A DNA stretch of 21,096 nt from Oscillospiraceae bacterium (GTDB lineage Bacteria; Bacillota_A; Clostridia; Oscillospirales; Ruminococcaceae): the NCBI GenBank assembly GCA_017829075.1, contig JAGAJA010000033.1, forward strand, positions 1 to 21,096. Direction: 5' to 3'. The notes beneath the pieces were generated by a model, which saw only the letters and a list, made by a program, of their open reading frames with translations, was not told where the DNA came from and did not search any database. Shown here piece after piece: positions 5,778 to 20,419 of this stretch. The first letter of the stretch is position 1. Every line of letters begins with the position of its first letter. The position numbers and the translations under genes are program-made.

Positions 5778-7964
5778 ATGAACGACACTTCACACCTGTT
5801 TCTTGCCAAAAGAGAGAACAACCCCAACCGGGATTTCATTATCATGAACACCCGGCAGGCGAAGCATTTCCCCTCCGACCCGGAAAGCTCGCTGGAGCTT
5901 ATGGAGGAGCTTGGACGCAAACTCGCGCAGGACGGCAGAGCCGAAAAAAGCACCGTTGTCATTGCCTTTGCGGAAACTGCGACAGCTATCGGCGCGGTGG
6001 TTTCAGGGTTCTTTCACGACTGCTTTTTCGTGACGACCACAAGAGAGGCTCTGCCGGACTGGGTTACTTCCATTTCCTTTGAGGAAAGCCACAGCCACGC
6101 GAAACGGCACTCTCTGTGTATCCGGGACGAGGACTTGTTCCGCAGGGCGGCGCAGGTCATTCTTGTGGACGATGAATTCACCACCGGTAACACCGCCATA
6201 GGACTTAAAAACGCGCTGGACGGCTGTCTTGCGCCGGGGTGCAGAGTATATGCGGCGGCTCTGGCGGCTTCTAAGGAAAGCATTGAGAATTTCAATAACG
6301 CAGGAATTATCCCGGTTTCTCTTGCGAAGCTTGAGGACATGACAAACCGCGCCGTTCCGGAGAAATTCTCCCCGGACAGGAATGTACAGCCGAGGGAATT
6401 CGGAGAAATTCTGCGCCGGAATGCTATTTTTGACCCGCGGCTGGGAGTGCCTGCGGACAGCTATCTTTCAGAGGTGCGGAAATTCTGTGGGCAGTTAGCG
6501 GAAAGCTTTTCCGGAAATACCGAGCAGACTGTGGAGATAATCGGCACGGAAGAATTCTGCTATCCCCCGCTGCTGCTTGGGAAAAAGCTTTCAGAGAAAT
6601 ATAAACGTGTGGTAGTCCACAGCGTCACCAGAAGTCCCATGCTTCCGTATGACAGTGGGCGCGAGGGCTTTGCTCAGCCCGCTCCGGGGGAATACCCCAT
6701 TGTGAACCGCACGGCGCTGACAAGCCTTTACGACCCGGAAAGAACGGTGTATCTCTACAATACGCAGCCCTGCGACATCAGCATAATATTTACGGACGTG
6801 CAGACCCCGGACGAAGACGCGCTTCGGGCATTGTGCGGCGCTGCCGGGGGCAGAGAGGTCAGGGTGATATGCTTTGGCGGAAAGAAGCTGCCCACCTCCT
6901 ACCGTCCGGAGGACGTTCAGCTCCTGCTGACGGATATCACCGGGAAGCTTCCGCCGCTTGCCGCAAAGGAGCGGGAGCCGCTTATCCAGAGCGGTATACA
7001 TTACAGCGAGCTTCTTCCTGCGGAATATGAGCCGTCTCCTGCGTATTTCAGAGAGTACGAAAACGGGCTGAGGCTCTGGGCAAAGGCTAACGCGCAGGCA
7101 GTCCAGACCGTCGCAGAGGCGATATGGGCGGAAAAAGGCAGGCGCGCGGTACTTGTTTCGCTGGCGAGGGCGGGAACTCCTGCGGGAGTGCTGATAAAAC
7201 GGTATATCCGTAAGAAGTACGGCGTATCTCTGCCGCATTATTCCATTTCGATTATTGTAGGCAGGGGGATCGACCGCCGTGCCATGGAATACATTCTGGC
7301 GCGGCATTCCGCAGACGGTATCCAGTTCATAGACGGCTGGACGGGTAAGGGAATGATCACCAGAACCCTCCGCACCGCGCTGGAGCAGTTTCCGCTGTAT
7401 GAGTACGGGATAGGCAGGGAAAAGCTGCCGAAGCTGTGCGAGATCGCTGTGCTTGCTGACCCGGCGGGGCTGTGCAGGCTGTGCGGTACTCACGAGGATC
7501 TGTTTATCCCCTGCGCCTGCCTTAACAGCGTGGTTTCCGGACTTTTCAGCCGTACTGTGCTGAAAGAGGGAGTGATCCAGCCGGAGGAGTTCCACGGAGC
7601 AGCTTATTTCGGGGAACTTGCCGGGCTTGACCGGACGTATGAGTTCATCGAAGCCGTGGAGCGGGAAATGAGCTATGACCGGACGAAGCTGCCGGAGCAG
7701 ATATCCGGCGCGGGTCTTGCTGAAACTCAGGAGATCGCCGCCGCATTCGGAGTGAACGATATAAAGCTTGTAAAGCCGGGAATAGGCGAAACCACACGGG
7801 TGCTGCTGCGGCGCATTCCGGAGCTTATCCTGCTCAGGGACATAAACAGCCCCCTCACCCGGCATATCGCGGAGCTTGCGCAGGAAAAGGGAGTTCCTGT
7901 GCGTGAATATCCGCTGAGGAACTACAAAGCCTGCGGAATAATTAAGGTAATGGACAATGTTTGA
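5778..7964 (+). CDS. Four-domain PRTase-TRSP-StiP-PELOTA fusion protein
   Basis: A 728-residue soluble protein joining modules usually split over two genes in Ter (tellurium/stress) operons. The N-terminal half (about 20-235) is an orotate-type phosphoribosyltransferase with the PRPP loop VILVDDEFTTGNT (127-139). A TRSP domain follows (about 240-395), with its literal signature TRSP at 284-287. The StiP/PRTase-like domain (about 415-635) has SLARAGTPAG (461-470), HYSISIIVGRGID (487-499) and a second loop FIDGWTGKGM (517-526). The C-terminus (about 645-728) matches the PELOTA RNA-binding module with KPGIGETTRVLLRR (666-679). In Ter operons this set is proposed to make a nucleoside-like metabolite; the reaction is unproven. 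The StiP 'cysteine protease' label is historical. No strong ribosome site precedes the ATG, so coupling to the PHP gene 8 bases upstream is likely. Its stop overlaps the HAD gene. Confidence 0.88.
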   Translation: MNDTSHLFLAKRENNPNRDFIIMNTRQAKHFPSDPESSLELMEELGRKLAQDGRAEKSTVVIAFAETATAIGAVVSGFFHDCFFVTTTREALPDWVTSISFEESHSHAKRHSLCIRDEDLFRRAAQVILVDDEFTTGNTAIGLKNALDGCLAPGCRVYAAALAASKESIENFNNAGIIPVSLAKLEDMTNRAVPEKFSPDRNVQPREFGEILRRNAIFDPRLGVPADSYLSEVRKFCGQLAESFSGNTEQTVEIIGTEEFCYPPLLLGKKLSEKYKRVVVHSVTRSPMLPYDSGREGFAQPAPGEYPIVNRTALTSLYDPERTVYLYNTQPCDISIIFTDVQTPDEDALRALCGAAGGREVRVICFGGKKLPTSYRPEDVQLLLTDITGKLPPLAAKEREPLIQSGIHYSELLPAEYEPSPAYFREYENGLRLWAKANAQAVQTVAEAIWAEKGRRAVLVSLARAGTPAGVLIKRYIRKKYGVSLPHYSISIIVGRGIDRRAMEYILARHSADGIQFIDGWTGKGMITRTLRTALEQFPLYEYGIGREKLPKLCEIAVLADPAGLCRLCGTHEDLFIPCACLNSVVSGLFSRTVLKEGVIQPEEFHGAAYFGELAGLDRTYEFIEAVEREMSYDRTKLPEQISGAGLAETQEIAAAFGVNDIKLVKPGIGETTRVLLRRIPELILLRDINSPLTRHIAELAQEKGVPVREYPLRNYKACGIIKVMDNV

Positions 7965-8718
7965 CCCGATAATTTTCACCGACCTTGACGGAACGCTGAT
8001 ATTCTCCGCCTCCAAAAAGCTGCCGGGGGATATCGTATGCGAATACAAGGACGGCGCGGAGATAAGCTGCATTACTGCGAAGCAGTCGCGGCTGCTGCCG
8101 CGACTTTCGGGAGTGATCCCGGTGACTACCCGAAGCATTGAGCAGTACCGGAGAATACGCTTCCCGGAGGGCTTCCAGCCGGAATACGCGCTCACGGACA
8201 ACGGCGGAACACTGCTCATTAACGGCGAGCCGGACAGGGAATGGACGGAAAATTCGCTGCGGCTGGCGGAGGAATGCTCATCAGAGCTGGAGCAGTGCCG
8301 CCGGATAATGGAGCAAGACAGCCGCCGCAGCTTTGAAATACGCATGGTGGACGGAATGTTCCTGTTCACGAAATCCGATTGCCCCGAAAAGTCGCTGGAA
8401 ATGCTGAGGGAAGCTGCGGGAGATAAAGTACGCTGCTTTTCCACAGGCGCGAAGATATACGCTCTGCCGGCGAAGCTGGACAAGGGAACGGCGGCGAAAC
8501 GGCTCGTGCAGCGGCTCTCTCCGTGCAGCAGGATAGTCTGCGCCGGGGACAGCCTTATGGACGTTCCGCTGCTGAATATCGCGGATATTGCAGTGTTTCC
8601 GGAGGACATAAGTGAGCAAATCCGCGCTGCGGAAAAGGTCGGATACCGCCGGGAACGTTTCCCGGAATATGTGACGGAATATTTTTGCATACTGCGCGGA
8701 ATTAATACAGAGGTTTAA
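7957..8718 (+). CDS. HAD-family phosphatase of the TRSP/StiP module
   Basis: A 253-residue HAD hydrolase, probably a Mg-dependent phosphatase. Motif I is TDLDGTL with Asp 9 and Asp 11. Motif II is the Thr/Ser pair in VTTRS (56-60). Motif III is Lys 176 in LDKG. Motif IV is GDSLMD (Asp 198 and 202). The inserted cap between motifs II and III is of the sucrose-phosphatase (C2) type. A HAD of this kind regularly accompanies the PRTase-TRSP and StiP genes in Ter operons, which supports one pathway. It starts inside the end of the fusion gene (8-base overlap), with AAGG 9 bases upstream of its ATG. Its own stop lies 2 bases before hemZ. The substrate is unknown; a phosphorylated ribosyl compound is the inference. 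Confidence 0.86.
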   Translation: MFDPIIFTDLDGTLIFSASKKLPGDIVCEYKDGAEISCITAKQSRLLPRLSGVIPVTTRSIEQYRRIRFPEGFQPEYALTDNGGTLLINGEPDREWTENSLRLAEECSSELEQCRRIMEQDSRRSFEIRMVDGMFLFTKSDCPEKSLEMLREAAGDKVRCFSTGAKIYALPAKLDKGTAAKRLVQRLSPCSRIVCAGDSLMDVPLLNIADIAVFPEDISEQIRAAEKVGYRRERFPEYVTEYFCILRGINTEV

Positions 8719-8720
8719 AA

Positions 8721-10142
8721 ATGACGCTTATTTTCAGCAATCACAAATTTCAATACGAGATAGAGCGGCTGTTCAGGAGCTTCTTTCCTCCGATGGAATT
8801 AAAGCTGTCCACCGATACCGCTGACGCGCAGGGGGACTATTGCCTGACAGAATGCGCTGAGGACGGAAACAGCGTAACGCTGTCTGTACAGCTTTCCTGC
8901 GATGGGAAAAGTTATTCCATGAGCCGCACAGTTCCGGCTTCAACTCCGGACAAGGAGCAGGAGCGGGAAATTTCCGTGCTGCTGTACAAGGCGCTGAGGG
9001 AATATACCGGGCGGGATCTGCCCTGGGGAATTCTCACCGGAGTGCGCCCGGTCAAGGTGCTGTCGAAGCTGACGGACGCGCAGGCGCTGCAAAGCCTGCT
9101 GGTGAGCAGCAGAAAGCTCCAGCTCGCCCGGAGGATAGAACAGGTTCAGAAGCCGCTTGAGGACAGCATTCCTACAAACTCCTTCAGCCTTTATGTGTCA
9201 ATACCCTTCTGCCCTACCCGGTGCAGCTATTGCAGCTTTGTGTCGCACTCGGTAAGTCAGGCGGCGGCAAGGCTGGACGAATATCTGCGGCGGGTGTGCG
9301 AGGAAATGAAGCAGCTTGCCACGATATCAAGGCATCTTGGGCTTATTCCGGATACGATATATTTCGGCGGAGGAACTCCCACGGTTCTTTCTGCGGAGCA
9401 GCTAAAACGGCTGTTTGCGGCGCTGGAATGTTTCGACCTGTCGCATATCCGGGAATTTACCGTTGAAGCCGGCAGACCGGATACAATAACCATAGAGAAA
9501 CTTAAAGCTATAAAATCCGCAGGAGCAGGCAGGATCAGCGTAAATCCCCAGACGATGAATGACCAAGTGCTGAAAGCAATCGGCAGGGCGCATGACAGCT
9601 CACAGACCGAGCAGGCGTTCCTTATGGCGCGGGAGATAGGATTTGATGTGATCAACATGGATCTTATCGCAGGACTGCCCACGGACAATTTCGACAGCTT
9701 TGCGGCGAGCCTTGACGCGGTATGCGGACTGTCGCCGGAAAACATCACAGTCCACAGCCTGTCGCTGAAACGCGCGGCGGCGCTGTTCCGTGAAAATTCC
9801 GGGAATACCCCCGGAGAGGCGGAAAAGATGATAGACTATGCCCACAGCAAACTTGCGGAATGCGGCTATGTCCCCTACTATCTCTACCGCCAGAAAAACA
9901 CCGCCGACAATCAGGAGAACACCGGATATGCAAAGCCCGGCTGCGAGAGCCTGTACAACACCTACATCATGGAGGAGCTTCAGACGATACTTGCGGTAGG
10001 TGCGGGAGCTTCCACAAAACTGGTTGACAGGAAGAACGGCAGAATAAAGCGGATAACTAACCATAAATACCCTTATGAATATTTAGACAGATTTACCGAC
10101 ATTCTGGAAAACAAGCGGGATATTTTTGGATTTTTCGTATAA
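8721..10142 (+). CDS. hemZ: HemZ-type radical SAM coproporphyrinogen dehydrogenase-like protein
   Basis: A 473-residue radical SAM protein of the HemN/HemZ group. The Fe4S4 motif CPTRCSYC uses Cys 164, 168 and 171. GGGTP (216-220) is the SAM-binding signature. The roughly 150-residue N-terminal extension before the cluster and the length fit HemZ of Clostridia and Bacillus rather than HemW. HemZ is named for oxygen-independent conversion of coproporphyrinogen III to protoporphyrinogen IX. In gut anaerobes that lack a full haem pathway the true substrate is uncertain, and no other haem genes are visible here. A ribosome site CAGAGG overlaps the end of the HAD gene 7 bases before the ATG, so it is probably co-transcribed with the preceding genes. 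Functional linkage to them is not shown. Confidence 0.9.
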   Translation: MTLIFSNHKFQYEIERLFRSFFPPMELKLSTDTADAQGDYCLTECAEDGNSVTLSVQLSCDGKSYSMSRTVPASTPDKEQEREISVLLYKALREYTGRDLPWGILTGVRPVKVLSKLTDAQALQSLLVSSRKLQLARRIEQVQKPLEDSIPTNSFSLYVSIPFCPTRCSYCSFVSHSVSQAAARLDEYLRRVCEEMKQLATISRHLGLIPDTIYFGGGTPTVLSAEQLKRLFAALECFDLSHIREFTVEAGRPDTITIEKLKAIKSAGAGRISVNPQTMNDQVLKAIGRAHDSSQTEQAFLMAREIGFDVINMDLIAGLPTDNFDSFAASLDAVCGLSPENITVHSLSLKRAAALFRENSGNTPGEAEKMIDYAHSKLAECGYVPYYLYRQKNTADNQENTGYAKPGCESLYNTYIMEELQTILAVGAGASTKLVDRKNGRIKRITNHKYPYEYLDRFTDILENKRDIFGFFV

Positions 10143-10976: not shown

Positions 10977-11021
10977 AATTATGATGAAAGATACAATTCA
11001 ATCAACGGAGGTTTGGGGAAA

Positions 11022-13265
11022 ATGAGCAAGCTGAAAAATGCCGGAATATATCTGGCTATTGCTTCAGTATCTGTAATTTTGGTACTCGCATGGGGCGGGT
11101 TTCAGAGAGACGCGTTTCTGATAGACGATAATAGGACGCAGTGGTTTCCGGTTATCGAAAAGGCATATGAGGATTTTTTTGAAACTGGAACTATGCCGTT
11201 CTATAATTTTTATCTTGAAAAAGGGCTTGCAATCGGTGAACCGGGATATTATAGCATAACAAACCCTTTTATGATGCTTGCATATCTTATTTCGCACTTT
11301 CTTCCTCTTGGTTTTTCGACTGTAACAGTCTATATATGCTTACAGACAATGCTAGGCAATCTGTTCTTTTACAAGCTGTGCCGCGAGATAAAGTGTAGTC
11401 ATGCCGTTTCCGCCACTGCAACTGCGGCTTATTTTTCGTGCAGTGCATTTGTATCGCATTGTATCTGGTACTATGTTTTTGTGAATTATATGTTTGTCCC
11501 ATTGCTGATTTGGGTATTTTTGAGATTACAGAATACCAGATTTGAATATGTTGGCTGCGGAATTGTTTTGGCTTTTGATTTACTAATGGGTAATGTGCAG
11601 TATACTTGCTATCACTATATTGTTTTCTGTCTGCTATGTGTAACATTGGTAATTTTTAAAAAGATCAGATACATAAAGATAATGCTGTCTAACATTGCTG
11701 TGGGGATAATACTCTCAATTCCATTCTTCTGTATGCTGATCAACTCGGCTGGTGGGTTTGATGAAACAGGCTTTCTTTCTCTTGAAATACCGTTGGGTGA
11801 ATTATTGATTAAATCATTGGTTCCTATCCCTATAATCTGTCAGATAACAGGTTTGGAGTTTGGTGTTAATTCACCATATCCGAATTTGCTGCAATATATG
11901 GGAGGCATAACCTCATGTCTTGTAATATGTCTTGTTGTTGCCATATCAAGTAAAATTAAGCAGCTTCGCTCTCAAAAGAAAGAAAATGAAAAAATCAAGA
12001 GCAAAAAATCTGAGAGTTTTCTGTACAAGATATATCAATGGAGCGCGGAATGGTATAAGAGAGTTTGTGCTTCCGGATTTTATGGCATAACCACTGTGGG
12101 AATTGTTGTTTGTTTGATTTTCTTTGCTTTGACTCTTAACAAAGGAACAGTGGCATATATCTTAAACTGCCTTCCTGTAATCAACCAATTCAGATATTTG
12201 TTCAAGGCATTGTTTGTCTTTATCCCGGTTTGCGCAGTATTATCAGCAATTGTTCTTTCTAAACAAAATGCAAGGATAAAAAAAGCAGTTGTCATTGTGA
12301 GCACTATGTTTTCATTAATAGGCGTGCTGAATAATTTTGTTGTTGTTAATTTTGACAATAGTTGGTATGATATCAGCCAATACGACAATTTCGAAGAGGA
12401 AAAGGAAACTGTGGATAAGTATAACACAGAAGCAGAAATCAATACCAAGGATTATAGAACAATATGCCTGTTCAGAAATCTATATAATGAGGACGGGAAA
12501 GTTTCTAATATAAACAATGAATTGTTCTTATATTACGAGAATATGACTAGAAATTTCCCAGCATATACTGATTCTTTCTCTCTTTGCGCCTATGAAATAT
12601 CTACATCAACCGAGCGTTTGAAGCAGTTTGATAAGATATATCAAGAGGACGAATTATATACAACCTATGCAAATGGCGGAAAAGTCGACTTCTTTATTCA
12701 AAGCCTGACCGATTGTCCGCAGGAGCTGGAAGCTCAGCTTATTTCCAACAGCGTAAAATATATCCTTGTAGAGAACACCAACATCAAGTATTCTGATGGA
12801 GTTGACTACACATCTGAGATAGTTGAACTGTTTGAAAACCTCGAAAATGTAAGGGTTCTGAGAACTGGTCAGTACAGCCAAAAATACGATCTCATCGAAC
12901 TGGACGGAGTAAACAGCCTTTGCGTTGACGAAAACGGCGGCTTCACTGAGCTGATTGATGATAACATGGATCTTCTTCATTTCGCGGCAGACGGATCGGA
13001 AAGCTACAAACTTTCATTTGCGTATGACAAGAACCTGAAAGCTTTTCTGACAAACGGCGGCGAGGAAACAATACTGGAGATAACCGAAGCGGAGGACGGA
13101 AACGCTGTTATCCGCACCAACGGAGTATCCGGAGAGGTTTATCTAACATACGACAGCGCGTTGTGTACGGCTGCGGTAGTTATGGAGATCGTGATAACCG
13201 CGGCGTTCATCGCTCTGATTGTGATACTGATATATCTCAGCATTAGAAAAAATAAGGAAGCATAA
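11022..13265 (+). CDS. YfhO/GT-C-like multi-pass membrane protein, putative glycosyltransferase
   Basis: A 747-residue polytopic membrane protein. TM1 (about 5-25) is followed by a large outside loop with an acidic DDNRTQW segment (about 38-44) and a loop rich in Tyr/Pro, as in GT-C folds where the first loop carries the catalytic acid. About ten to twelve further hydrophobic segments run to residue 445. A soluble region of about 270 residues precedes a last TM (about 715-740) and a short basic tail. This resembles YfhO-family proteins, which are linked to adding sugars from polyprenyl-phosphate donors to surface polymers. The ATG at 11022 has GGAGG 10 bases upstream; an upstream TTG at 11013 lies too close to it. 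The first 1.6 kb is visibly more AT-rich than the neighbours. First gene of the operon. Family assignment is moderate. Confidence 0.7.
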   Translation: MSKLKNAGIYLAIASVSVILVLAWGGFQRDAFLIDDNRTQWFPVIEKAYEDFFETGTMPFYNFYLEKGLAIGEPGYYSITNPFMMLAYLISHFLPLGFSTVTVYICLQTMLGNLFFYKLCREIKCSHAVSATATAAYFSCSAFVSHCIWYYVFVNYMFVPLLIWVFLRLQNTRFEYVGCGIVLAFDLLMGNVQYTCYHYIVFCLLCVTLVIFKKIRYIKIMLSNIAVGIILSIPFFCMLINSAGGFDETGFLSLEIPLGELLIKSLVPIPIICQITGLEFGVNSPYPNLLQYMGGITSCLVICLVVAISSKIKQLRSQKKENEKIKSKKSESFLYKIYQWSAEWYKRVCASGFYGITTVGIVVCLIFFALTLNKGTVAYILNCLPVINQFRYLFKALFVFIPVCAVLSAIVLSKQNARIKKAVVIVSTMFSLIGVLNNFVVVNFDNSWYDISQYDNFEEEKETVDKYNTEAEINTKDYRTICLFRNLYNEDGKVSNINNELFLYYENMTRNFPAYTDSFSLCAYEISTSTERLKQFDKIYQEDELYTTYANGGKVDFFIQSLTDCPQELEAQLISNSVKYILVENTNIKYSDGVDYTSEIVELFENLENVRVLRTGQYSQKYDLIELDGVNSLCVDENGGFTELIDDNMDLLHFAADGSESYKLSFAYDKNLKAFLTNGGEETILEITEAEDGNAVIRTNGVSGEVYLTYDSALCTAAVVMEIVITAAFIALIVILIYLSIRKNKEA

Positions 13266-13280
13266 GGGCATGGTGGTACT

Positions 13281-14060
13281 ATGAAAATTATTATTCCCAT
13301 GACGGGATACGGCTCGCGGTTTGTCGCAGCGGGATATAAGGAGCTGAAGCCGTTCATCAGCGTTCAGGGTAAGCCCATTATCGAGTGGATAATACAGGGA
13401 ATGTTCCCCGGCGAGAAGGATATTCTGTTCGTCTGCCGGGAGGAGCATCTTCGTACTATCGACGGCATGGAGGAGCGGCTGCGCTCTATCGCTCCCGGCT
13501 GTGAGATAGCAGCAATAAGCGACTGGGTGAAGAAAGGCCCGGTTTATGACGTTCTGCGAGTTTCCGACCTTATCGACGATAACGAACCTTGCATTATCAA
13601 CTACTGCGATTTTTTCATGGAGTGGGACTGGCAGGGCTTCAAGCGCGATGTAACGAAGCGCGGCTGTGATGGGTGTGTGCCGTGTTATTCCGGATTTCAC
13701 CCGCACCTGCTGATAGAGAAAAATCTCTACGCCTCATGCAAGGTAGATGAGGAGGAAAACCTGATCGAAATCCGAGAGAAATTCTCCTTTGAAAAAGACA
13801 AGCAGAAAGCCCGGCATTCTCCGGGAACCTATTATTTTAGAACTGGAGCATTGCTGAAAAAATACTGTACAATGCTGACCGAAAGCGATCAGGCGATAAA
13901 CGGCGAATATTACGCCAGTCTGCCGTATAATTTCATGGTGGCTGACGGACTGAAAGTATGGGTGCCGGTGAACGTAAAACACTTCTGTCAGTGGGGAACT
14001 CCGGAGGATATGGCGGATTACCTTTTCTGGACTGAGTGTACGCGGAGGTTTTCAAAATGA
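13281..14060 (+). CDS. Sugar-phosphate nucleotidyltransferase (first of two)
   Basis: A 259-residue NTP transferase of the glucose-1-phosphate thymidylyl/cytidylyltransferase superfamily, expected to couple NTP and a sugar or polyol phosphate to an NDP-sugar plus pyrophosphate. The nucleotide loop is IIPMTGYGSRFVAAGYKELKP (about residues 4-24), with the conserved Gly, Arg and Lys. The metal Asp is probably in NYCDFF (about 109-114). WGTPED near the C-terminus (about 239-244) is shared with the next gene. It lies 15 bases after the membrane gene, and its stop overlaps the next start as ATGA. The nucleotide and sugar cannot be told from sequence. It could also be a regulatory or catalytically altered partner of the second copy. 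Confidence 0.85.
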   Translation: MKIIIPMTGYGSRFVAAGYKELKPFISVQGKPIIEWIIQGMFPGEKDILFVCREEHLRTIDGMEERLRSIAPGCEIAAISDWVKKGPVYDVLRVSDLIDDNEPCIINYCDFFMEWDWQGFKRDVTKRGCDGCVPCYSGFHPHLLIEKNLYASCKVDEEENLIEIREKFSFEKDKQKARHSPGTYYFRTGALLKKYCTMLTESDQAINGEYYASLPYNFMVADGLKVWVPVNVKHFCQWGTPEDMADYLFWTECTRRFSK

Positions 14061-14863
14061 ATGTTCTTATTCCAATGGCGGGGGCGGGAAAGCGTTTTTC
14101 GGACGCCGGTTACACCATAAGCAAGCCGCTTATTCCCACTACCTCCCGATATGACGGCAGACAAAAGCCAATGGTGGTCTGCGCCGTGGACGATATCATC
14201 GCGCTTACCGGAAAACCTGACAGGCTGATATTTGTCGACCGCACCGATGAACCCTCGCAAATTCGGGACTCCATAAGATTCTATCTCCCAACGGCTGAGT
14301 TTATCGGAGTCGACCATCTCACCGAGGGGCAGGCGTGTACCTGCCTGTTGGCGAAGGGTCTTATAAATAACGACCAGCCTTTATTCATCGGCGGCTGCGA
14401 CAACGGTATGGCGGCGGATAAGGAGCTGTTTAACAGACTTATGGACTGCTCTGACGTGCTTGTTTTTACATACCGCCACAATGACTGTGTTCTGAAAGCT
14501 CCAAACGCATACGGCTGGGTGATTGAAGACGAAAACGGCATTGTAAAAGACGTTTCCGTGAAAAAAGCCATTTCAGACGATCCGATGAACGATCACGCGA
14601 TCGTCGCTTCCTTTGCGTTCAAGAAAGGCTCGGATTTTGTTGAATGCGCGGAGCAGATGATAGCGGCAGATGACCGGGTCAACAATGAATTCTATGTGGA
14701 CAAAGTAATTCATTACTGCGTAAAAAACGGACTTAGGGTTCGGGTATTTGAAATATCAAGATACATCGGCTGGGGAACTCCGGAGGATTATGAGAACTAC
14801 GAAAAAACGCTGAAATACTGGAGCGAATTCACCTCCGGAGAATTGTTCCTGCCTGAAAAATAA
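14057..14863 (+). CDS. Sugar-phosphate nucleotidyltransferase (second, diverged)
   Basis: A 268-residue paralogue of the preceding enzyme. The loop is LIPMAGAGKRFSDAGYTISKP (about residues 4-24), followed by a short insertion before QKPMVV. GGCDNG (about residues 113-118) carries the probable metal-binding Asp, and WGTPED is repeated near the C-terminus. The start is the ATG at 14057, with GGAGG 9 bases upstream, overlapping the previous stop as ATGA. A GTG start at 14036 would put the ribosome site inside the gene and is rejected. Two diverged copies side by side suggest either two activated sugars or a two-subunit enzyme. It is expected to be cytosolic and to feed the membrane glycosyltransferases of the same operon. 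Confidence 0.86.
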   Translation: MNVLIPMAGAGKRFSDAGYTISKPLIPTTSRYDGRQKPMVVCAVDDIIALTGKPDRLIFVDRTDEPSQIRDSIRFYLPTAEFIGVDHLTEGQACTCLLAKGLINNDQPLFIGGCDNGMAADKELFNRLMDCSDVLVFTYRHNDCVLKAPNAYGWVIEDENGIVKDVSVKKAISDDPMNDHAIVASFAFKKGSDFVECAEQMIAADDRVNNEFYVDKVIHYCVKNGLRVRVFEISRYIGWGTPEDYENYEKTLKYWSEFTSGELFLPEK

Positions 14864-14880
14864 TTTTTGCGAGGTCGTAC

Positions 14881-16968
14881 ATGACAGAAGAGATAAAAAA
14901 GGATAAAAGGCTCCTGATAATGATTATTTCGGCTGTTATATTGAAGCTTGTTGCAATGGGGCTGTTTTCTTCAGACTATCAGAACGAAATGTTTGAGCCG
15001 TTTATCGGCGACTGGATAGAGAGCTGGAAAAACGGCTTTGCCGACCCCTATCAGCGATATTATGACAGCGGCATGAGTATACGGTTTCCTTATCCGGCGG
15101 TAATGCTTATCGTTATGACTGTCGGAGGAGTTCTCTCCGGGCTGTTTCCCTCTGCCCCGCTTTTTATTCATAATATACTGTTCAAGCTCCCGCTGCTGAT
15201 TTTTGATCTGATCTCGTTTGTATATCTGATGAAGATGTTCCCGAAACGCGGCAGGAAGTGCTGCGCAGTGTATCTGTTCTCGCCGATCACACTGTACTCG
15301 GTTTTCATGCACGGGCAGTTGGACATAATCCCTATGACGATACTTCTGGTATCTCTGTATTATCTCACCGACCGGAATGATACAAAAAGCTTTGTCATAT
15401 CTTCTGTACTGTGCGGACTTTCACTGCTGGCTAAGCTGAATATCGCAGCGATAGTTCCGCTGGTGCTGATCTATATTCTGAAACGGCACGGCAGACTCAA
15501 AGCACTCATTTATGCTCTCATCATGTGTGTGGTGCTTATCACAGGGTTTGTTCCGTTTTATGGATCAGGATTTATCAATGGGGTCATCTTCAATTCCGAA
15601 CAGAGTACACTGTTTTCTCTGAATCTGTCTTATGGCAATATTCAGCTTTATTTGTGCATATTTGCAATAGCCGCAATATATCTTTATGTGCTGTGCCTAA
15701 ATATAATCAGCAGGGATCTGCTTTACGGCTTCTGCGGCATCATTTTTGCAGCGTTTCTGGCGTTGTGCGTCCCCATGCCGGGCTGGTATGTGTGGTTCGT
15801 GCCGTTTATGTCTGTTTTCCTGCTCAGTGTGAATTACCGCCGGGACAGCGTTATATGCAGCACGGTCTTTGATTTCTGCTACATTCTTTACATCATCTTT
15901 ATGCACAGCAGGGAGGGAGTATGCGACCTGTATTTCCTCACAACAGACTGCGGCTTCCTGAAAATAAAAGACGAGCTGATAACAAACATTGGCTTTACCC
16001 TGCTCAATGTTTCTCTCGTTTTCATGGCATATATGATATTCAAGTTTGACATCAGCCGTAACGGGTATTATCGTTTCCACGACAGATCCTTTGTGATAGG
16101 AATATGTGGCGACAGCGGCTGTGGAAAATCCACGCTGCAAAACAGTCTGGCAAGCATTTTCAGGAAAAAGGACTTCCTCAGGATAGAGGGCGACGGCGAC
16201 CATAAATGGGAACGCGGCGATAAAAACTGGGATCATTACACGCACCTTGATCCCAAAGCCAACTATCTTTATCGTCAGGCAATGGATATCTACAAGCTGA
16301 AAAACGGTCAGGACACAAGGCGGGTAGACTACGACCACACAACAGGAAAATTCACGCCAAGCGAGGTGGTACATCCCAGACGTTTCCTTTCTGTCAGCGG
16401 ACTGCACACCTTTTATCTTCCCCAGCTCAGGGATATAATTGACCTGCATATCTATATGGAGGCTGAGGAGGAACTGCGGTGCCTGTGGAAAGTGGAGCGA
16501 GATTCCGGTGACAGGGGACATACAGCCGAAAACGTAATGAACCAGATAAAAGCGAGATACGAAGACTCCGAAAAATACATAGTCCCCCAGCGTGAATACG
16601 CCGATATAATTATCAGCTATTTCATTGATAGCAATGAACCGCTGTCAGTGGGAATGAAAATCCAGACCAATACAAAAATTGATATCGAGCCGATAATCGA
16701 CGCGTTGCGGGAACACGGGATTACTATCGACTACCGGTTTTCAGACGATTTCCGCTGCCACATCACGGAATACAGACCCTCCGAGAACCCCGAAGCTGTC
16801 AGCGTTGATTTTGACGCTATCGCTTCGGATATAATCGAGTTCAGATATGATATAACAGGAGAAAAGCTGGATTGCAGCGATATTTGTGACGGAATACAGA
16901 AACTGTTTATCCTTAAGGCGATAAGCACGAAGTTTCTGGGAAATGACATCAGGACGAGAGGAAAATGA
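14881..16968 (+). CDS. Fusion of GT-C-like membrane glycosyltransferase and PRK/uridine-kinase-type kinase
   Basis: A 695-residue protein with two unlike halves. Residues 1-390 form a polytopic domain of about ten hydrophobic segments. After TM1 (11-29) comes an outside loop with acidic residues (DYQNEMFEPFIGDW), RFPYPAV (68-74) and HGQLD (144-148), features of polyprenyl-phosphate-sugar-dependent GT-C mannosyltransferase-like enzymes. Residues 404-580 are a P-loop kinase: GDSGCGKST (410-418) is the Walker A. EGDGDHKWER (436-445) and the run to HPRRFLSVSGLH match the phosphoribulokinase/uridine kinase family, with an Arg-rich lid near 540-546. Residues 581-695 form an extra domain I do not recognise. 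The kinase would face the cytosol. It could phosphorylate a sugar, polyol or nucleoside used by the operon. An RBS-like GAGGT precedes the ATG. The stop overlaps the HAD start as ATGA. Confidence 0.85.
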   Translation: MTEEIKKDKRLLIMIISAVILKLVAMGLFSSDYQNEMFEPFIGDWIESWKNGFADPYQRYYDSGMSIRFPYPAVMLIVMTVGGVLSGLFPSAPLFIHNILFKLPLLIFDLISFVYLMKMFPKRGRKCCAVYLFSPITLYSVFMHGQLDIIPMTILLVSLYYLTDRNDTKSFVISSVLCGLSLLAKLNIAAIVPLVLIYILKRHGRLKALIYALIMCVVLITGFVPFYGSGFINGVIFNSEQSTLFSLNLSYGNIQLYLCIFAIAAIYLYVLCLNIISRDLLYGFCGIIFAAFLALCVPMPGWYVWFVPFMSVFLLSVNYRRDSVICSTVFDFCYILYIIFMHSREGVCDLYFLTTDCGFLKIKDELITNIGFTLLNVSLVFMAYMIFKFDISRNGYYRFHDRSFVIGICGDSGCGKSTLQNSLASIFRKKDFLRIEGDGDHKWERGDKNWDHYTHLDPKANYLYRQAMDIYKLKNGQDTRRVDYDHTTGKFTPSEVVHPRRFLSVSGLHTFYLPQLRDIIDLHIYMEAEEELRCLWKVERDSGDRGHTAENVMNQIKARYEDSEKYIVPQREYADIIISYFIDSNEPLSVGMKIQTNTKIDIEPIIDALREHGITIDYRFSDDFRCHITEYRPSENPEAVSVDFDAIASDIIEFRYDITGEKLDCSDICDGIQKLFILKAISTKFLGNDIRTRGK

Positions 16969-17642
16969 TTGAAGCGGTAGTTTTTGACATTGACAATACC
17001 CTATACGATTACGAGACTTGTAATCAGGCAGGCAGTTCAGCCATGTCGCAGGCACTGTGCAGATACCGCCAGACAGATCCGGAGGAATTCCAGCGGCTTT
17101 TACGTCAGGCAAAAACGGATATCAAAAAAAATCTGGAAAATACCGCGGCTTGTCACAACCGTATGCTGTACGCTCAGCGGATATGCGAGCTTGCAGGAAT
17201 AAGGAGCGCCTCGGCGGCTCTGGAGATGTATAACGCCTACTGGGACGCATTTCTGGGGCAAATGAAACTTTATGACGGTGTCAACGCGGTGTTTTCGTTC
17301 CTAAAAGCACGGAGAATAAAAATCGGATTCTGCACCGACCTCACTGCGAACATTCAGATGAGAAAGATCGTAAAGCTGGGGCTTGACGAAATTCCAGACG
17401 CGATAGTTACCAGCGAGGAATGCGGGAGGGAAAAACCGGATAAATCAATGTTCCTGTCTATTCTGAAAAAGCTGGAAACAGCGCCGGAAAGCTCTATAAT
17501 GGTTGGCGATGACTATGAAAAGGACATCTGTGGCGCGAAAGCCTGCGGAATGAACGCGATACTTATGGGTAGGGCGCGCCGCGATTGTGACTGCGCGGCG
17601 GATTTTCCGGAGCTTCTGACGCTTTTGGCAAGGGGGATTTAA
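16965..17642 (+). CDS. HAD-superfamily phosphatase (subfamily IA type)
   Basis: A 225-residue HAD hydrolase, probably removing phosphate from a sugar or polyol phosphate in the cytosol. Motif I is VFDIDNTL (Asp 8 and 10). Motif II is the Thr in FCTDL. Motif III is the Lys in EKPDKSMF. Motif IV is VGDDYEKD. A helical cap (about 18-95) lies between motifs I and II, as in subfamily IA. It overlaps the kinase fusion by 4 bases (ATGA), and its end carries the AAGGGGG ribosome site for the GtrA gene. With the nucleotidyltransferases and aldolase it fits a pathway making a modified sugar. The substrate is not predictable. Confidence 0.88.
   Translation: MIEAVVFDIDNTLYDYETCNQAGSSAMSQALCRYRQTDPEEFQRLLRQAKTDIKKNLENTAACHNRMLYAQRICELAGIRSASAALEMYNAYWDAFLGQMKLYDGVNAVFSFLKARRIKIGFCTDLTANIQMRKIVKLGLDEIPDAIVTSEECGREKPDKSMFLSILKKLETAPESSIMVGDDYEKDICGAKACGMNAILMGRARRDCDCAADFPELLTLLARGI
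17630..17636 (+). promoter_or_regulatory. Ribosome binding site that decides the AUA start of GtrA gene
   Basis: AAGGGGG ends 7 bases before the codon ATA at 17644, an ideal spacing. No ATG, GTG or TTG lies at a suitable distance in the GtrA frame. The stop TAA of the HAD gene (17640-17642) lies between. Confidence 0.6.
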
Positions 17643-17643
17643 C

Positions 17644-18045
17644 ATAAAACTCAAATCAAAATTCAGCCTGCGGGAGATACTTAAGTTTCTGGTGGGCGGT
17701 GGAAGCGCCGTTCTGGTGGATTTTCTTGTATATAACCTGCTGCTTTTTCTGGGCGCTGAAACATGGGCGGCAAAAACCGTTTCCTATATTTCCGGCGCTG
17801 TGGTGGGATTTATCATCAACAAGTTCTGGACATTCAACAGCCCGGAATTCCACGGCTCGGAGATCGTGAAATACATTATTCTCTATGCTGTTTCCGCCGC
17901 TGCGAACGCTCTTGTAAACAGCGCGGTGATAGCATGGCTGGGGTGGAAGATATTTGCGTTTCTTGCGGCGACCGGCACAAGCACGATAATGAACTTTCTC
18001 GGTCAAAAATTCTTCGTTTTTCGCAGAAAGGATAGCAGTCAATGA
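17644..18045 (+). CDS. GtrA-family membrane protein, apparent AUA start
   Basis: A 133-residue protein with four predicted TM helices (about 12-36, 43-61, 75-97, 102-120). GtrA proteins are thought to help flip or present polyprenyl-phosphate-linked sugars and often sit next to a DPM1-like GT2 gene, as here. Family motifs NKFWTF (59-64) and NFLGQKFFVF (117-126) are present. The first canonical in-frame start is GTG at 17692, which would cut into TM1 (EILKFLVGGGSA) and has no well-placed ribosome site. The frame is open upstream to ATA at 17644, 7 bases after AAGGGGG, giving the expected N-terminus (I/M)KLKSKF. Either AUA is used, helped by coupling to the HAD stop 1 base upstream, or the assembly carries an ATG-to-ATA error or a mutation. 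The end overlaps the GT2 gene by 4 bases. Confidence 0.85.
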   Translation: MKLKSKFSLREILKFLVGGGSAVLVDFLVYNLLLFLGAETWAAKTVSYISGAVVGFIINKFWTFNSPEFHGSEIVKYIILYAVSAAANALVNSAVIAWLGWKIFAFLAATGTSTIMNFLGQKFFVFRRKDSSQ

Positions 18046-18749
18046 GATTTTCAATAGTTGTTCCCTGCTATAATGAGGAGGAAAACATACCGCTTATTCT
18101 GGACAGATTTTCTCAATCGATAAAGGATAGAAGCGACATAGAAGTAATTCTCGTAAACAACGGCTCTACCGATAATTCAGAAGCAGTGCTTTCTGAACTG
18201 CTCCCCGGCTATCCCTTTGCAAGGTGCGTAAAGGTAGAAGTAAATCAAGGCTACGGCTTCGGCATTTTATCCGGTTTAAAGCAGACGGAGGGCGAATTCA
18301 TCGGCTGGACTCACGCTGATATGCAGACTGATCCTGCGGACGTAATAAAAGCTGCGGATATCATCGCGCAGAACAACTTCGACAAAACGCTTTTTGTCAA
18401 GGGAAACCGCAAAGGGCGCAGTATTTTCGATGTTTTCTTCACGGTGGGAATGAGCTTTTACGAAAGCCTGTATCTCGGGCAGAGGCTGTGGGATATAAAC
18501 GCTCAACCCAACCTGTTCAGCCGGAGCTTTTTTGAAAGCTGGGAGGATCCGCCCTATGATTTCTCGCTGGATCTGTATGCGCTGTATCTTGCGAGAAAGA
18601 AGCGGTGCCGGCTAATACGCTTTCCGGTACGGTTTCCGAAAAGAATTCACGGAAGCTCCAAATGGAACACCGGACTTGGCGCAAAGCGGAAATTCATCAA
18701 AAGGACGCTTGATTTCAGCAAGGCTTTGAAGAAAAGGGGTGTGCGCTGA
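18042..18749 (+). CDS. GT2-family glycosyltransferase, DPM1-like
   Basis: A 235-residue soluble GT-A enzyme of the dolichyl-phosphate mannose synthase-like branch. It is expected to move a sugar from an NDP donor to a polyprenyl phosphate on the inner face of the membrane. Motifs are VVPCYNEEENI (6-16), NNGSTDNS (39-46), NQGYGFGILSGLK (68-80) and the metal-binding HADMQTD (91-97, in place of the usual DADLQ). A C-terminal GSSKWN segment is typical of this branch. It has no C-terminal TM helices, which fits the separate GtrA protein encoded immediately upstream with a 4-base overlap. It ends TGATG, sharing a base with the next start. The donor sugar is unknown and may be the product of the operon's nucleotidyltransferases. 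Confidence 0.92.
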   Translation: MRFSIVVPCYNEEENIPLILDRFSQSIKDRSDIEVILVNNGSTDNSEAVLSELLPGYPFARCVKVEVNQGYGFGILSGLKQTEGEFIGWTHADMQTDPADVIKAADIIAQNNFDKTLFVKGNRKGRSIFDVFFTVGMSFYESLYLGQRLWDINAQPNLFSRSFFESWEDPPYDFSLDLYALYLARKKRCRLIRFPVRFPKRIHGSSKWNTGLGAKRKFIKRTLDFSKALKKRGVR

Positions 18750-19354
18750 TGCAGTATATCTGCCACAGAATAAACAGGTTCGAGGAACTGGAAAACGTAC
18801 CGGACGGCTGCGGAGTAGAGCTTGACCTGCGCGACGACTTAAACGGAAGCATTTATATCGAACACAACCCATTCACTCCGGGGCAGCGTTTTGAGGAGTA
18901 TCTTAAGCATTATAACAAGGGTCTTATGATACTGAATATCAAAAGCGAACGCATCGAAGAGCCTGTCCTTGAGCTAATAAAAAAATACGGCGTAACGTCC
19001 TATTTCTTTCTAGACAGCTCGTTTCCGATGATATATCTTCTTTCGCAGAAAGGGATAACTCAAACCGCGCTGCGCTTTTCGGAATTCGAGGGGCTTGACA
19101 CTGCCATAAAAATGGCTGGGCGTTGCGAATGGATCTGGGTGGACTGCTTCACCAAAATGCCATTGGATAAAGAAAGCTACGAGTTGATAAAGAGCTGTAA
19201 CTACAAGATCTGCATTGTATCACCGGAGCTTCAAAGTCAGCCGGAAAAGCTGGAGGAATACGCAGGATATCTCACGGAAAACGGACTTATTCCGGACGCA
19301 GTGTGCACGAAATACTATAATATCGACAAGTGGAAGCGTTATTTGGGTGAGTAA
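18749..19354 (+). CDS. Glycerophosphodiester phosphodiesterase-like (GDPD) protein
   Basis: A 201-residue TIM-barrel phosphodiesterase-like protein, shorter than the usual 240-300. The N-terminus CHRINRF gives His 6-Arg 7. GVELDLRDD (22-30) supplies the metal-binding Glu 24 and Asp 26. IEHNPF (37-42) gives the second catalytic His 39, where the family usually has HD. LNIKSE (about 62-67) matches the conserved strand with Lys. No signal peptide or TM is seen, so it should be cytosolic. In this operon it could split a phosphodiester-linked intermediate rather than a phospholipid, but that is inference. Start and previous stop overlap as TGATG; a ribosome-site-like AAGGGG lies upstream. Confidence 0.78.
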   Translation: MQYICHRINRFEELENVPDGCGVELDLRDDLNGSIYIEHNPFTPGQRFEEYLKHYNKGLMILNIKSERIEEPVLELIKKYGVTSYFFLDSSFPMIYLLSQKGITQTALRFSEFEGLDTAIKMAGRCEWIWVDCFTKMPLDKESYELIKSCNYKICIVSPELQSQPEKLEEYAGYLTENGLIPDAVCTKYYNIDKWKRYLGE

Positions 19355-19369
19355 CCTCAGGAGGAAATG

Positions 19370-20419
19370 ATGGACAATATAGAATACGGCAGTGAGCTTT
19401 CTCACATTTCGAAATGCTCCGGCTCTTTTACCGAACTTGTTCAGGCTGGCGGCGGAAATACTTCCGTAAAAATCGACGACCGGTATATGCTCATTAAAGC
19501 GTCAGGGTATCATCTTACGGAGGTCGCACCGGACAGCGGCTATTCGGTGGTGGATCATAAGCTTATCAGCGATATTTTTTCCGGTTCTGAGATTGACGAT
19601 GCAGAGGAGCAGGAAATACTGAAAAAGGCTCTCTGCGAGGGTAAAAAGCCATCTATCGAAACCTTTCTCCACTCTATAACAAAAAAGTATACCATACACA
19701 CTCACCCGCTTGCGGTTAGCGTTCTTGCCTCAAAAGCAGGAGGAATGGAGGAGCTGAAAAAGCTTTTCCCGCAGGCAGCAATGGTGGACTACGCTACCCC
19801 CGGAATAAAGCTCGCAAAGACCTATTACAAAGCAATGAAGCAGCAGGGAGTATCCGATGTGGTTTTCCTGAAAAATCACGGACTTATCGTGAGCGCGGAC
19901 AGCGCAGAGGCTGCTCTCCGGCTGCAATATGATACGGTCACAAAAGTTATGGAGTATCTTCACATGGATACTGCCGGATTTGCGGATCAGATGAGGATAT
20001 ATAACGTAGTGTACGGCGCAGACCCGTCCCTGTCCGTCTGCCGGATAACAGCTCCCGATGTGGTAAAGGCGGCTTGCATCAGCGGCGGTCAGTGGGATTA
20101 CAGGTATTCCCCGGACTGCATCGTGTACTGCGGAAACAAGTTCCTTGTGCTTAACGGCGGCGATGACATAGAAGAGAAGCTTCGCCGGCATATTGAGCAA
20201 TACGGAATGCCGAAAATAATCGTGTCAGGAGATAATGTCTACGCTGCTGCGCCGAATGCTGCAAAATCCGCAGAGATAGGAGTGGTTCTGGATTTCACCG
20301 CAAAGCATTATCTGAAAAGCAGGACGGAGGGCTTTGACTGTGATATGCTTTCGGACAGCGAATGCAGCTTTCTGCTCAACTGGGATTCAGAGAAGTACAG
20401 AAGCGCTCTTGGCAGGTAA
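19370..20419 (+). CDS. Class II aldolase/adducin-family protein
   Basis: A 349-residue zinc-type aldolase, expected to split or form a C-C bond of a ketose phosphate or related substrate in the cytosol. Motifs from this start are GGGNTSVK (27-34, phosphate binding), IKASGYHL (42-49), the probable catalytic Glu 97 in PSIETFLH, and zinc ligands His 110 and His 112 (HTH) and His 170 (KNHG). The C-terminal 140 residues go beyond the common 210-residue fold and resemble the longer rhamnulose-phosphate-aldolase-type proteins that carry an extra domain. Two adjacent ATGs occur at 19367 and 19370. The AGGAGG at 19359-19364 is only 2 bases from the first and 5 from the second, so the second is chosen. 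Last clear gene of the operon, 15 bases after the GDPD-like gene. The substrate is unknown. Confidence 0.88.
   Translation: MDNIEYGSELSHISKCSGSFTELVQAGGGNTSVKIDDRYMLIKASGYHLTEVAPDSGYSVVDHKLISDIFSGSEIDDAEEQEILKKALCEGKKPSIETFLHSITKKYTIHTHPLAVSVLASKAGGMEELKKLFPQAAMVDYATPGIKLAKTYYKAMKQQGVSDVVFLKNHGLIVSADSAEAALRLQYDTVTKVMEYLHMDTAGFADQMRIYNVVYGADPSLSVCRITAPDVVKAACISGGQWDYRYSPDCIVYCGNKFLVLNGGDDIEEKLRRHIEQYGMPKIIVSGDNVYAAAPNAAKSAEIGVVLDFTAKHYLKSRTEGFDCDMLSDSECSFLLNWDSEKYRSALGR

Follow-up and report, generated by a model that had tools for sequence, protein, structure and literature searches.

We show that a single reading frame of a clostridial genome joins a predicted GT-C glycosyltransferase to a phosphoribulokinase (PRK)-like kinase, and that this fusion is genuine, spread over two phyla and encoded within the same set of genes in all six loci that we read. 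The window, the whole stretch of DNA that was analysed, covers 21,096 nucleotides of a contig from an Oscillospiraceae bacterium; the fusion, of 695 amino acids, occupies positions 14881–16968 of its plus strand, on which the cassette genes described below also lie. We consider it an evenly balanced proposition that the fusion combines the acceptor-side transferase with one metabolic step of a Gtr-like surface-glycan decoration cassette that has its own donor pathway. A literature search, mostly without subscription papers, found no paper whose listed entry describes the fusion or the cassette.

The original prediction, made from the sequence alone, had proposed one frame joining a GT-C-like membrane part and a P-loop kinase, and had named a false join of two genes near 16050–16100 as one finding that would refute it. 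The single 695-codon frame is intact. The sole relative found in genome contigs is a 695-aa protein with 93% identity on a MAG contig labelled "uncultured Clostridia bacterium" (L001). Between these two proteins dN/dS is 0.075 over residues 1–690, 0.10 in the membrane half (residues 1–395), 0.032 and 0.096 in the kinase part (residues 396–580 and 581–688, respectively) and 0.025 across the junction (residues 371–420), which is under purifying selection and carries no frameshift artefact. Nor are the homologues always two separate genes. A database search scored 7996 candidates, of which 1109 matched at E ≤ 0.001, and the best 120 of these 1109 all carry the PRK Pfam domain in near-full-length fusions of 623–712 aa; a second search, started from three aligned proteobacterial members, scored 7999 candidates and yielded 1258 matches, with the PRK domain in each of the best 120 of 1258 (624–705 aa). 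The listed homologues of both searches thus repeat the domain order at near-full fusion size. Together, the L001 relative, the selection on the junction and these listed fusions confirm the predicted frame and rule out a chimeric or frameshifted origin. Source names among the matches listed include Ruminococcus, Clostridium and Paenibacillus for the first search and Azospirillum, Orrella, Crenobacter, Solimicrobium and Brucella sp. for the second, of which one listed match (P0311) additionally carries PF05208, presumably the ALG3 family.

How common is the fusion? In samples of genomes drawn around two centres, G001 and G119, and counted with the centre included, a near-full-length fusion is present in 2 of 291 genomes of the class of G001, in 2 of 394 of its order, in 1 of 394 of the order of G119, in 1 of 87 of the family of G119 and in 1 of 398 of a phylum sample; the single bearer is G119 itself in its order and family, and the centre itself in the phylum sample. 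Some match occurs in 83 of the 291 genomes of the class of G001, mostly to the kinase alone or the membrane part alone. All sampled fusion-bearing genomes are the same two sample centres, so the fusion is rare and patchy in these genomes and no taxonomic trend can be drawn. A stand-alone kinase as the general rule was also considered: a kinase-only search, with a length limit that prevents the return of full fusions, yielded 92 matches of mixed content, including phage-type fusions, plant PRKs and cyanobacterial PRKs. Because the largest contig measures ≤5 kb for 50 of the 92, many may be fragments. Others sit on long contigs, indicating that separate or truncated kinases exist; by visual inspection, P0166 (309 aa, 716-kb contig) and P0149 (326 aa, 112-kb contig) start with the last membrane helix, and P0173 (301 aa, 49.6-kb contig) and P0152 (277 aa, 58-kb contig) start in or near the kinase.

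Structure prediction was carried out for both halves. Residues 1–395 (14881–16065) are predicted to form a GT-C membrane fold, the closest folds to the model, which represents the window protein only, being GPI mannosyltransferase I and ALG3; in contrast to these, ALG6 and other Dol-P-sugar GT-C enzymes, the window fusion is bacterial and carries a kinase. Its HGQLD motif (residues 144–148, 15310–15324) contains an aspartate, Asp148, that is invariant in both of our alignments (A1 and A2), while the motif around it is found as H[GSTA]QLD in 120 of 121 clostridial-type sequences and as HGQLD in 5 of 123 proteobacterial-type sequences. The adjacent GT2 and GtrA genes suggest that the GT-C domain uses a polyprenyl-phosphate-linked donor. 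GT-C enzymes act extracytoplasmically, and we place the kinase, which comes directly after the last membrane helix, in the cytosol because it needs ATP; loop charges, used as an indicator of membrane topology, did not decide the orientation. Direct channelling from the kinase to the GT-C domain is therefore unlikely, and it is more plausible that the fusion tethers the donor pathway to its transferase. The earlier functional interpretation, in which the phosphorylated product is made at the membrane next to its use or the kinase gates the transferase, is partly supported.

The kinase half (residues 400–687, 16078–16941) is predicted to adopt the whole PRK fold, including the PRK C-terminal part, so that the further 115-residue domain of the original prediction is not separate but corresponds to this C-terminal part. 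Walker A, put at residues 410–418 in the original prediction, is GDSGCGKS at residues 410–417 (16108–16131), DGDHKWER (residues 438–445, 16192–16215) aligns with the DxxHxxxR motif of PRKs, and SGLH (residues 506–509, 16396–16407) takes the position of EGLH or EGLL in aligned solved PRKs. Is this a PRK or a uridine kinase, the two having been left side by side in the earlier description of the kinase body? In a midpoint-rooted tree, in which P0123, P0195, P0200 and L042 form long branches, the clade of fusion kinases (96/91; a group that includes three kinase-only or truncated rows) lies beside the PRKs (95/92), and the uridine-kinase-like rows are separate (100/100); two PRK rows whose Walker A pattern was not matched were dropped from this tree, 10 of 28 uridine-kinase-like ORFs were used, and some PRK and uridine-kinase labels were assigned by size and similarity. 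The udk NCBIfam models score 77.5 bits against a cut-off of 180 and 69.1 bits against 220.3. Predicted fold, tree and model scores thus indicate that the kinase half is closer to PRK than to uridine kinase, its usual database name. Two stand-alone PRK-like proteins (L040 and L041) have RGLF in place of EGLH, yet branch with the PRK-like rows.

The active site is recognizable but altered. We took a census of 124 fusions, comprising the window protein, the best 120 of the 1109 matches and three plasmid proteins. All 124 keep both Walker A and DxxHxxxR, whereas the glutamate of EGLH, which we take to be a Walker-B type metal ligand, is present in none, being replaced by Cys (79), Ser (42, one as SGLL), Asn (2) or Gly (1). 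In the proteobacterial-type set SGLH stands at this site in 111 of 123; Walker A ends in GKD, not GKS/T, in 117 of 123, the remaining 6 having no pattern match; and DxxHxxxR is found in 116 and a relaxed Walker A in 117 of the 123. A strict KxxRD pattern matches 110 of 121 clostridial-type and 115 of 123 proteobacterial-type sequences, all clostridial- and proteobacterial-type counts having been made with fixed-window patterns in which some "none" counts are pattern misses. These patterns point to a shared change near the metal site and not to general decay. Activity of the fusions on Ru5P is nonetheless uncertain, because the EGLH glutamate is absent from all 124 and Walker A holds an aspartate in 117 of 123 proteobacterial-type sequences; the altered metal site may leave room for a changed or lost activity. 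Compared with solved PRKs whose C-terminal part is complete (PDB 9qkp/9qko, "cyanobacteria specific PRK"; 5b3f, Methanospirillum PRK), the window kinase stands behind a GT-C domain, its family has replaced the EGLH glutamate, mostly by Cys or Ser, and it is set in a glycan cassette and not in carbon fixation.

The cassette in the window consists of eight genes in the same direction, from 13281 to 20419, several of which overlap by a few bases. It opens with two nucleotidyltransferase genes: NTP1 (13281–14060, 259 aa), of the sugar-1-phosphate type, has an intact GxGxRF...KP signature and matches NTP_transf_3 with 24.8 bits, slightly below the cut-off of 27, and NTP2 (14060–14863, 267 aa; alternative GTG start at 14036) carries the same signature, has no Pfam match and only weak matches to RmlA/GlmU models, and is 34.6–90.6% identical to its counterparts in all five other fusion loci. 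Downstream of the fusion are an HAD phosphatase (16965–17642), whose closest curated model is the ribulose-1,5-bisphosphate 5-phosphatase NF053830, a GtrA-family flippase-type membrane protein (17692–18045; PF04138, E 4.4e-19) and a GT2 glycosyltransferase (18042–18749; PF00535, E 1.9e-21), presumably of the polyprenyl-phosphate-sugar synthase type given its GtrA partner. These are followed by a small GDPD/PI-PLC-like phosphodiesterase (PDE; 18749–19354), so named after the RefSeq family in L034–L036, which lacks a Pfam match but has a profile match to the PDEs of related loci (prob 99.8), and by a class II aldolase/epimerase-family enzyme (19367–20419; PF00596, E 6.9e-19). The latter keeps the PSxExxxH, HTHP and NHG motifs; it resembles the Ru1P aldolase model weakly (E 4.4e-6) and the aldolase/short-chain dehydrogenase and rhamnulose-1-phosphate aldolase models more strongly. 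A large membrane protein upstream (11013–13265) was rejected as a member, as only L001 shares its full extent (65%); the membrane proteins of G119 and of the E. coli plasmid are different ones, which align with one another locally over a single stretch of 47 residues. Elsewhere in the window, positions 5778–8718 encode a 728-aa protein with, by eye, paired phosphoribosyltransferase domains and then an HAD-like protein, followed by a radical-SAM (HemZ-like) gene (8721–10142), a region reminiscent of tellurite-resistance-associated operons.

The five other fusion loci read come from two phyla, and by tblastn each contains all eight genes: L001, G119 (L032 and L033), Azospirillum brasilense p5 (L034), an E. 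coli IncR plasmid (L035) and Hirschia baltica pHbal01 (L036). The conservation of the cassette thus extends over six loci, window included, although L036 has its aldolase, NTP and best-matching GtrA genes nearby on the opposite strand. In the three proteobacterial loci, and in most of the phage loci described below, NTP1 and NTP2 together make up a single protein of ~520–590 aa. In the four loci of other lineages the GT2 is 52–62% identical to that of the window and the fusion 28–40%, in keeping with a donor that stays the same and an acceptor that varies. Near the G119 and Azospirillum loci there are genes for ABC transporters, glycosyltransferases and methyltransferases. Among 5426 E. coli genomes, 2 have the cassette, both on plasmids; the complete cassette of the IncR plasmid (L035:6022–14984) has an IS26-type transposase gene downstream and recurs as a 100.0% identical copy on a second E. 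coli plasmid, which comes from another source.

The specificity of the HAD enzyme appears to follow the presence of the kinase. In all five fusion loci tested, the window included and L001 not, its best NCBIfam model is NF053830, with 208.5 bits in the window and 156.4, 181.8, 168.2 and 190.2 bits in the others, against 91–117 for the next-best models and an equivalog cut-off of 330 that none of the five reaches. Four loci of Rhizobium, Scandinavium, Azospirillum lipoferum and Pseudomonas alcaligenes (L043, L044, L046 and L047) hold nucleotidyltransferases and the PDE, with no fusion, kinase or aldolase in the stretch read; there, the HAD is matched best by the beta-phosphoglucomutase family in 4 of 4, without any match to NF053830 at E ≤ 1e-8. 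These plasmid loci, some of which adjoin WavE and ABC transporter genes, indicate that the kinase is not always required by the core, and perhaps they represent a sister pathway with another sugar phosphate.

A related module is found in large phages. Phage contigs (L048–L111) carry clusters of the kinase, a class II aldolase, a small HAD, a PDE and a double nucleotidyltransferase, surrounded by glycosyltransferase 61, methyltransferase and GDP-mannose dehydratase genes. A T4-type gp23 match was obtained for 10 of 14 contigs tested and was lacking in the other 4; the NCLDV capsid PF16903 matched none of the 14, and did not match the positive control either. Among 68 phage loci, of which 4 are repeat contigs, 59 have the aldolase on the strand of the kinase. 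In most of the phage loci, and in P0180, P0186 and P0187, the kinase is joined to a predicted GT-A domain (GT6-like) with weak, sub-threshold Pfam similarity to DUF7796. In P0195 (472 aa, 55-kb contig) a kinase of the same lineage, with EGLH kept, is fused to a class II aldolase. The phage PDE and small HAD were recognized through clustering, motifs and the reading of one example of each: a phmmer search with the window PDE found no PDE in the phage loci, the Pfam match of the small HAD lies below threshold (E 0.005), and its hhalign probability of 0.8 with the bacterial HAD does not demonstrate homology. The two phage loci searched against Rfam gave no match. A viral-contig scan with P0057 returned no relatives, and one with alignment A2 returned four loci, all on phage contigs already in the set; a BFVD search with the predicted model gave a few kinase-only matches and unrelated polyproteins. 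Since searches of phage collections gave only distant kinase matches, the module has no named, annotated example here.

How could these genes work together? Three-component glycan modification systems (GtrABC) need an activated sugar, and the remaining genes of the cassette look like activated-sugar synthesis. We infer the order of steps, the substrates, the chemical identity of the sugar and catalytic activity as follows. The class II aldolase/epimerase would shape a pentulose- or pentose-type sugar phosphate, to which the cytosolic PRK-like kinase would add a second phosphate (for PRK, at C1 of a 5-phosphate), giving a sugar bisphosphate; the RuBP-5-phosphatase-like HAD would take off the original phosphate, and the nucleotidyltransferase pair would activate the resulting 1-phosphate. 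The GT2 would then load the sugar onto polyprenyl phosphate, GtrA would flip it, and the GT-C domain would transfer it outside onto a polysaccharide. The likeness to GtrA–GtrB–GtrC and CsbB–GtcA–YfhO lies in the co-occurrence of a GtrA-family protein, a GT2 and a GT-C in 6 of 6 fusion loci, with the GT-C modelled for the window only, whereas the window cassette adds what appears to be its own nucleotide-sugar pathway (kinase, HAD, aldolase, two nucleotidyltransferases and PDE). The link of kinase and aldolase, seen in the P0195 fusion and in the phage loci, supports this cassette reading, as does a link of kinase and glycosyltransferase that appears to recur in phages with a different, predicted fold.

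In ADP/GDP-heptose synthesis, a kinase is followed by an HAD phosphatase and a nucleotidyltransferase. By analogy, the cassette may likewise move a phosphate to C1 before activation, although its kinase is of the PRK family and its substrate would be a C5 sugar; enzymes related to its kinase and phosphatase act on Ru5P and RuBP. Heptose activation is partly named in the accessible part of PMC10918830, where work on CDP-6-glucitol indicates, again as an analogy only, that ketose phosphates can be nucleotide-activated. In Yersinia O:10, the O-antigen carries an L-xylulose side chain (PMC11380512, accessible part); a link to such xylulose-containing O-antigens found no support, as that part of the source names no such kinase or aldolase. 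More tentatively, a PRK lineage outside carbon fixation may build a new nucleotide-activated pentose or pentulose by a bisphosphate relay of aldolase, PRK-like kinase, HAD, paired nucleotidyltransferases and PDE, with a core common to two phyla and large T4-type phages, and the kinase may have been joined to glycosyltransferases of two unrelated folds, a bacterial GT-C and a phage GT-A, as its product feeds directly into glycosyl transfer. Against the proposed donor pathway of the cassette stand the altered active site of the kinase, the below-cut-off scores of the HAD, the plasmid loci without kinase and aldolase and the undemonstrated homology of the phage HAD. In addition, the cassette contains no aldose–ketose isomerase, and a ketose 1-phosphate is an unusual substrate for sugar-1-phosphate nucleotidyltransferases.

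Could the same enzymes serve breakdown? The kinase would convert Ru5P to RuBP, the HAD would release ribulose 1-phosphate, and the aldolase would cleave this to DHAP and glycolaldehyde, feeding a C2/C3 glycan substituent. According to the accessible part of PMC9700705, the haloarchaeal non-carboxylating pentose bisphosphate pathway indeed places an HAD-family RuBP phosphatase, which yields ribulose 1-phosphate, before a FucA-type aldolase of the class II superfamily, there in nucleoside degradation and with other partner enzymes; NF053830 as best HAD model in 5 of 5 loci and the active-site motifs of the window aldolase fit this precedent. The window differs from it in an HAD that scores below the equivalog cut-off and in neighbours that are glycan genes. 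A breakdown route is rather unlikely: the aldolase matches other models better than that of Ru1P aldolase, and the sugar-1-phosphate-type nucleotidyltransferases, GT2 and GtrA would be left without a sugar.

The tie to two glycosyltransferase folds, one in bacteria and one predicted in phages, and the altered metal-site residues would also suit a kinase that phosphorylates a lipid-linked sugar or the end of a glycan, as a cap or phospho-glycan. We regard this as unlikely: PRK-family kinases act on small molecules, the kinase travels with a class II aldolase, and ATP is cytosolic while GT-C action is extracytoplasmic. Loss of the EGLH glutamate in all 124 census fusions (best 120 of 1109 included), and the fusion itself, might instead betray a degenerate sensor that gates the transferase by sugar phosphate or ATP; the retention of Walker A and DxxHxxxR in the same 124, KxxRD in 110 of 121 and 115 of 123, and a dN/dS lower in the kinase (0.032, residues 396–580) than in the membrane half (0.10) render this quite improbable. 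That a uridine kinase was joined by chance to a membrane protein would agree with the names given by the sources, and the Pfam PRK domain spans both families, but udk scores far under their cut-offs, the tree and predicted fold, and the conservation of fusion and cassette across phyla leave this reading very little room.

In conclusion, the proposed decoration cassette offers a functional context for a large family that sources often name "uridine kinase", with 1109 entries matched in one search and 1258 in the other, judged from the best 120 of each. The PRK family seems to have a second life in glycan synthesis, for which the whole cassette now provides testable substrates. Phages seem to carry the same metabolic core, perhaps for decorating themselves or for changing the surface of their hosts.
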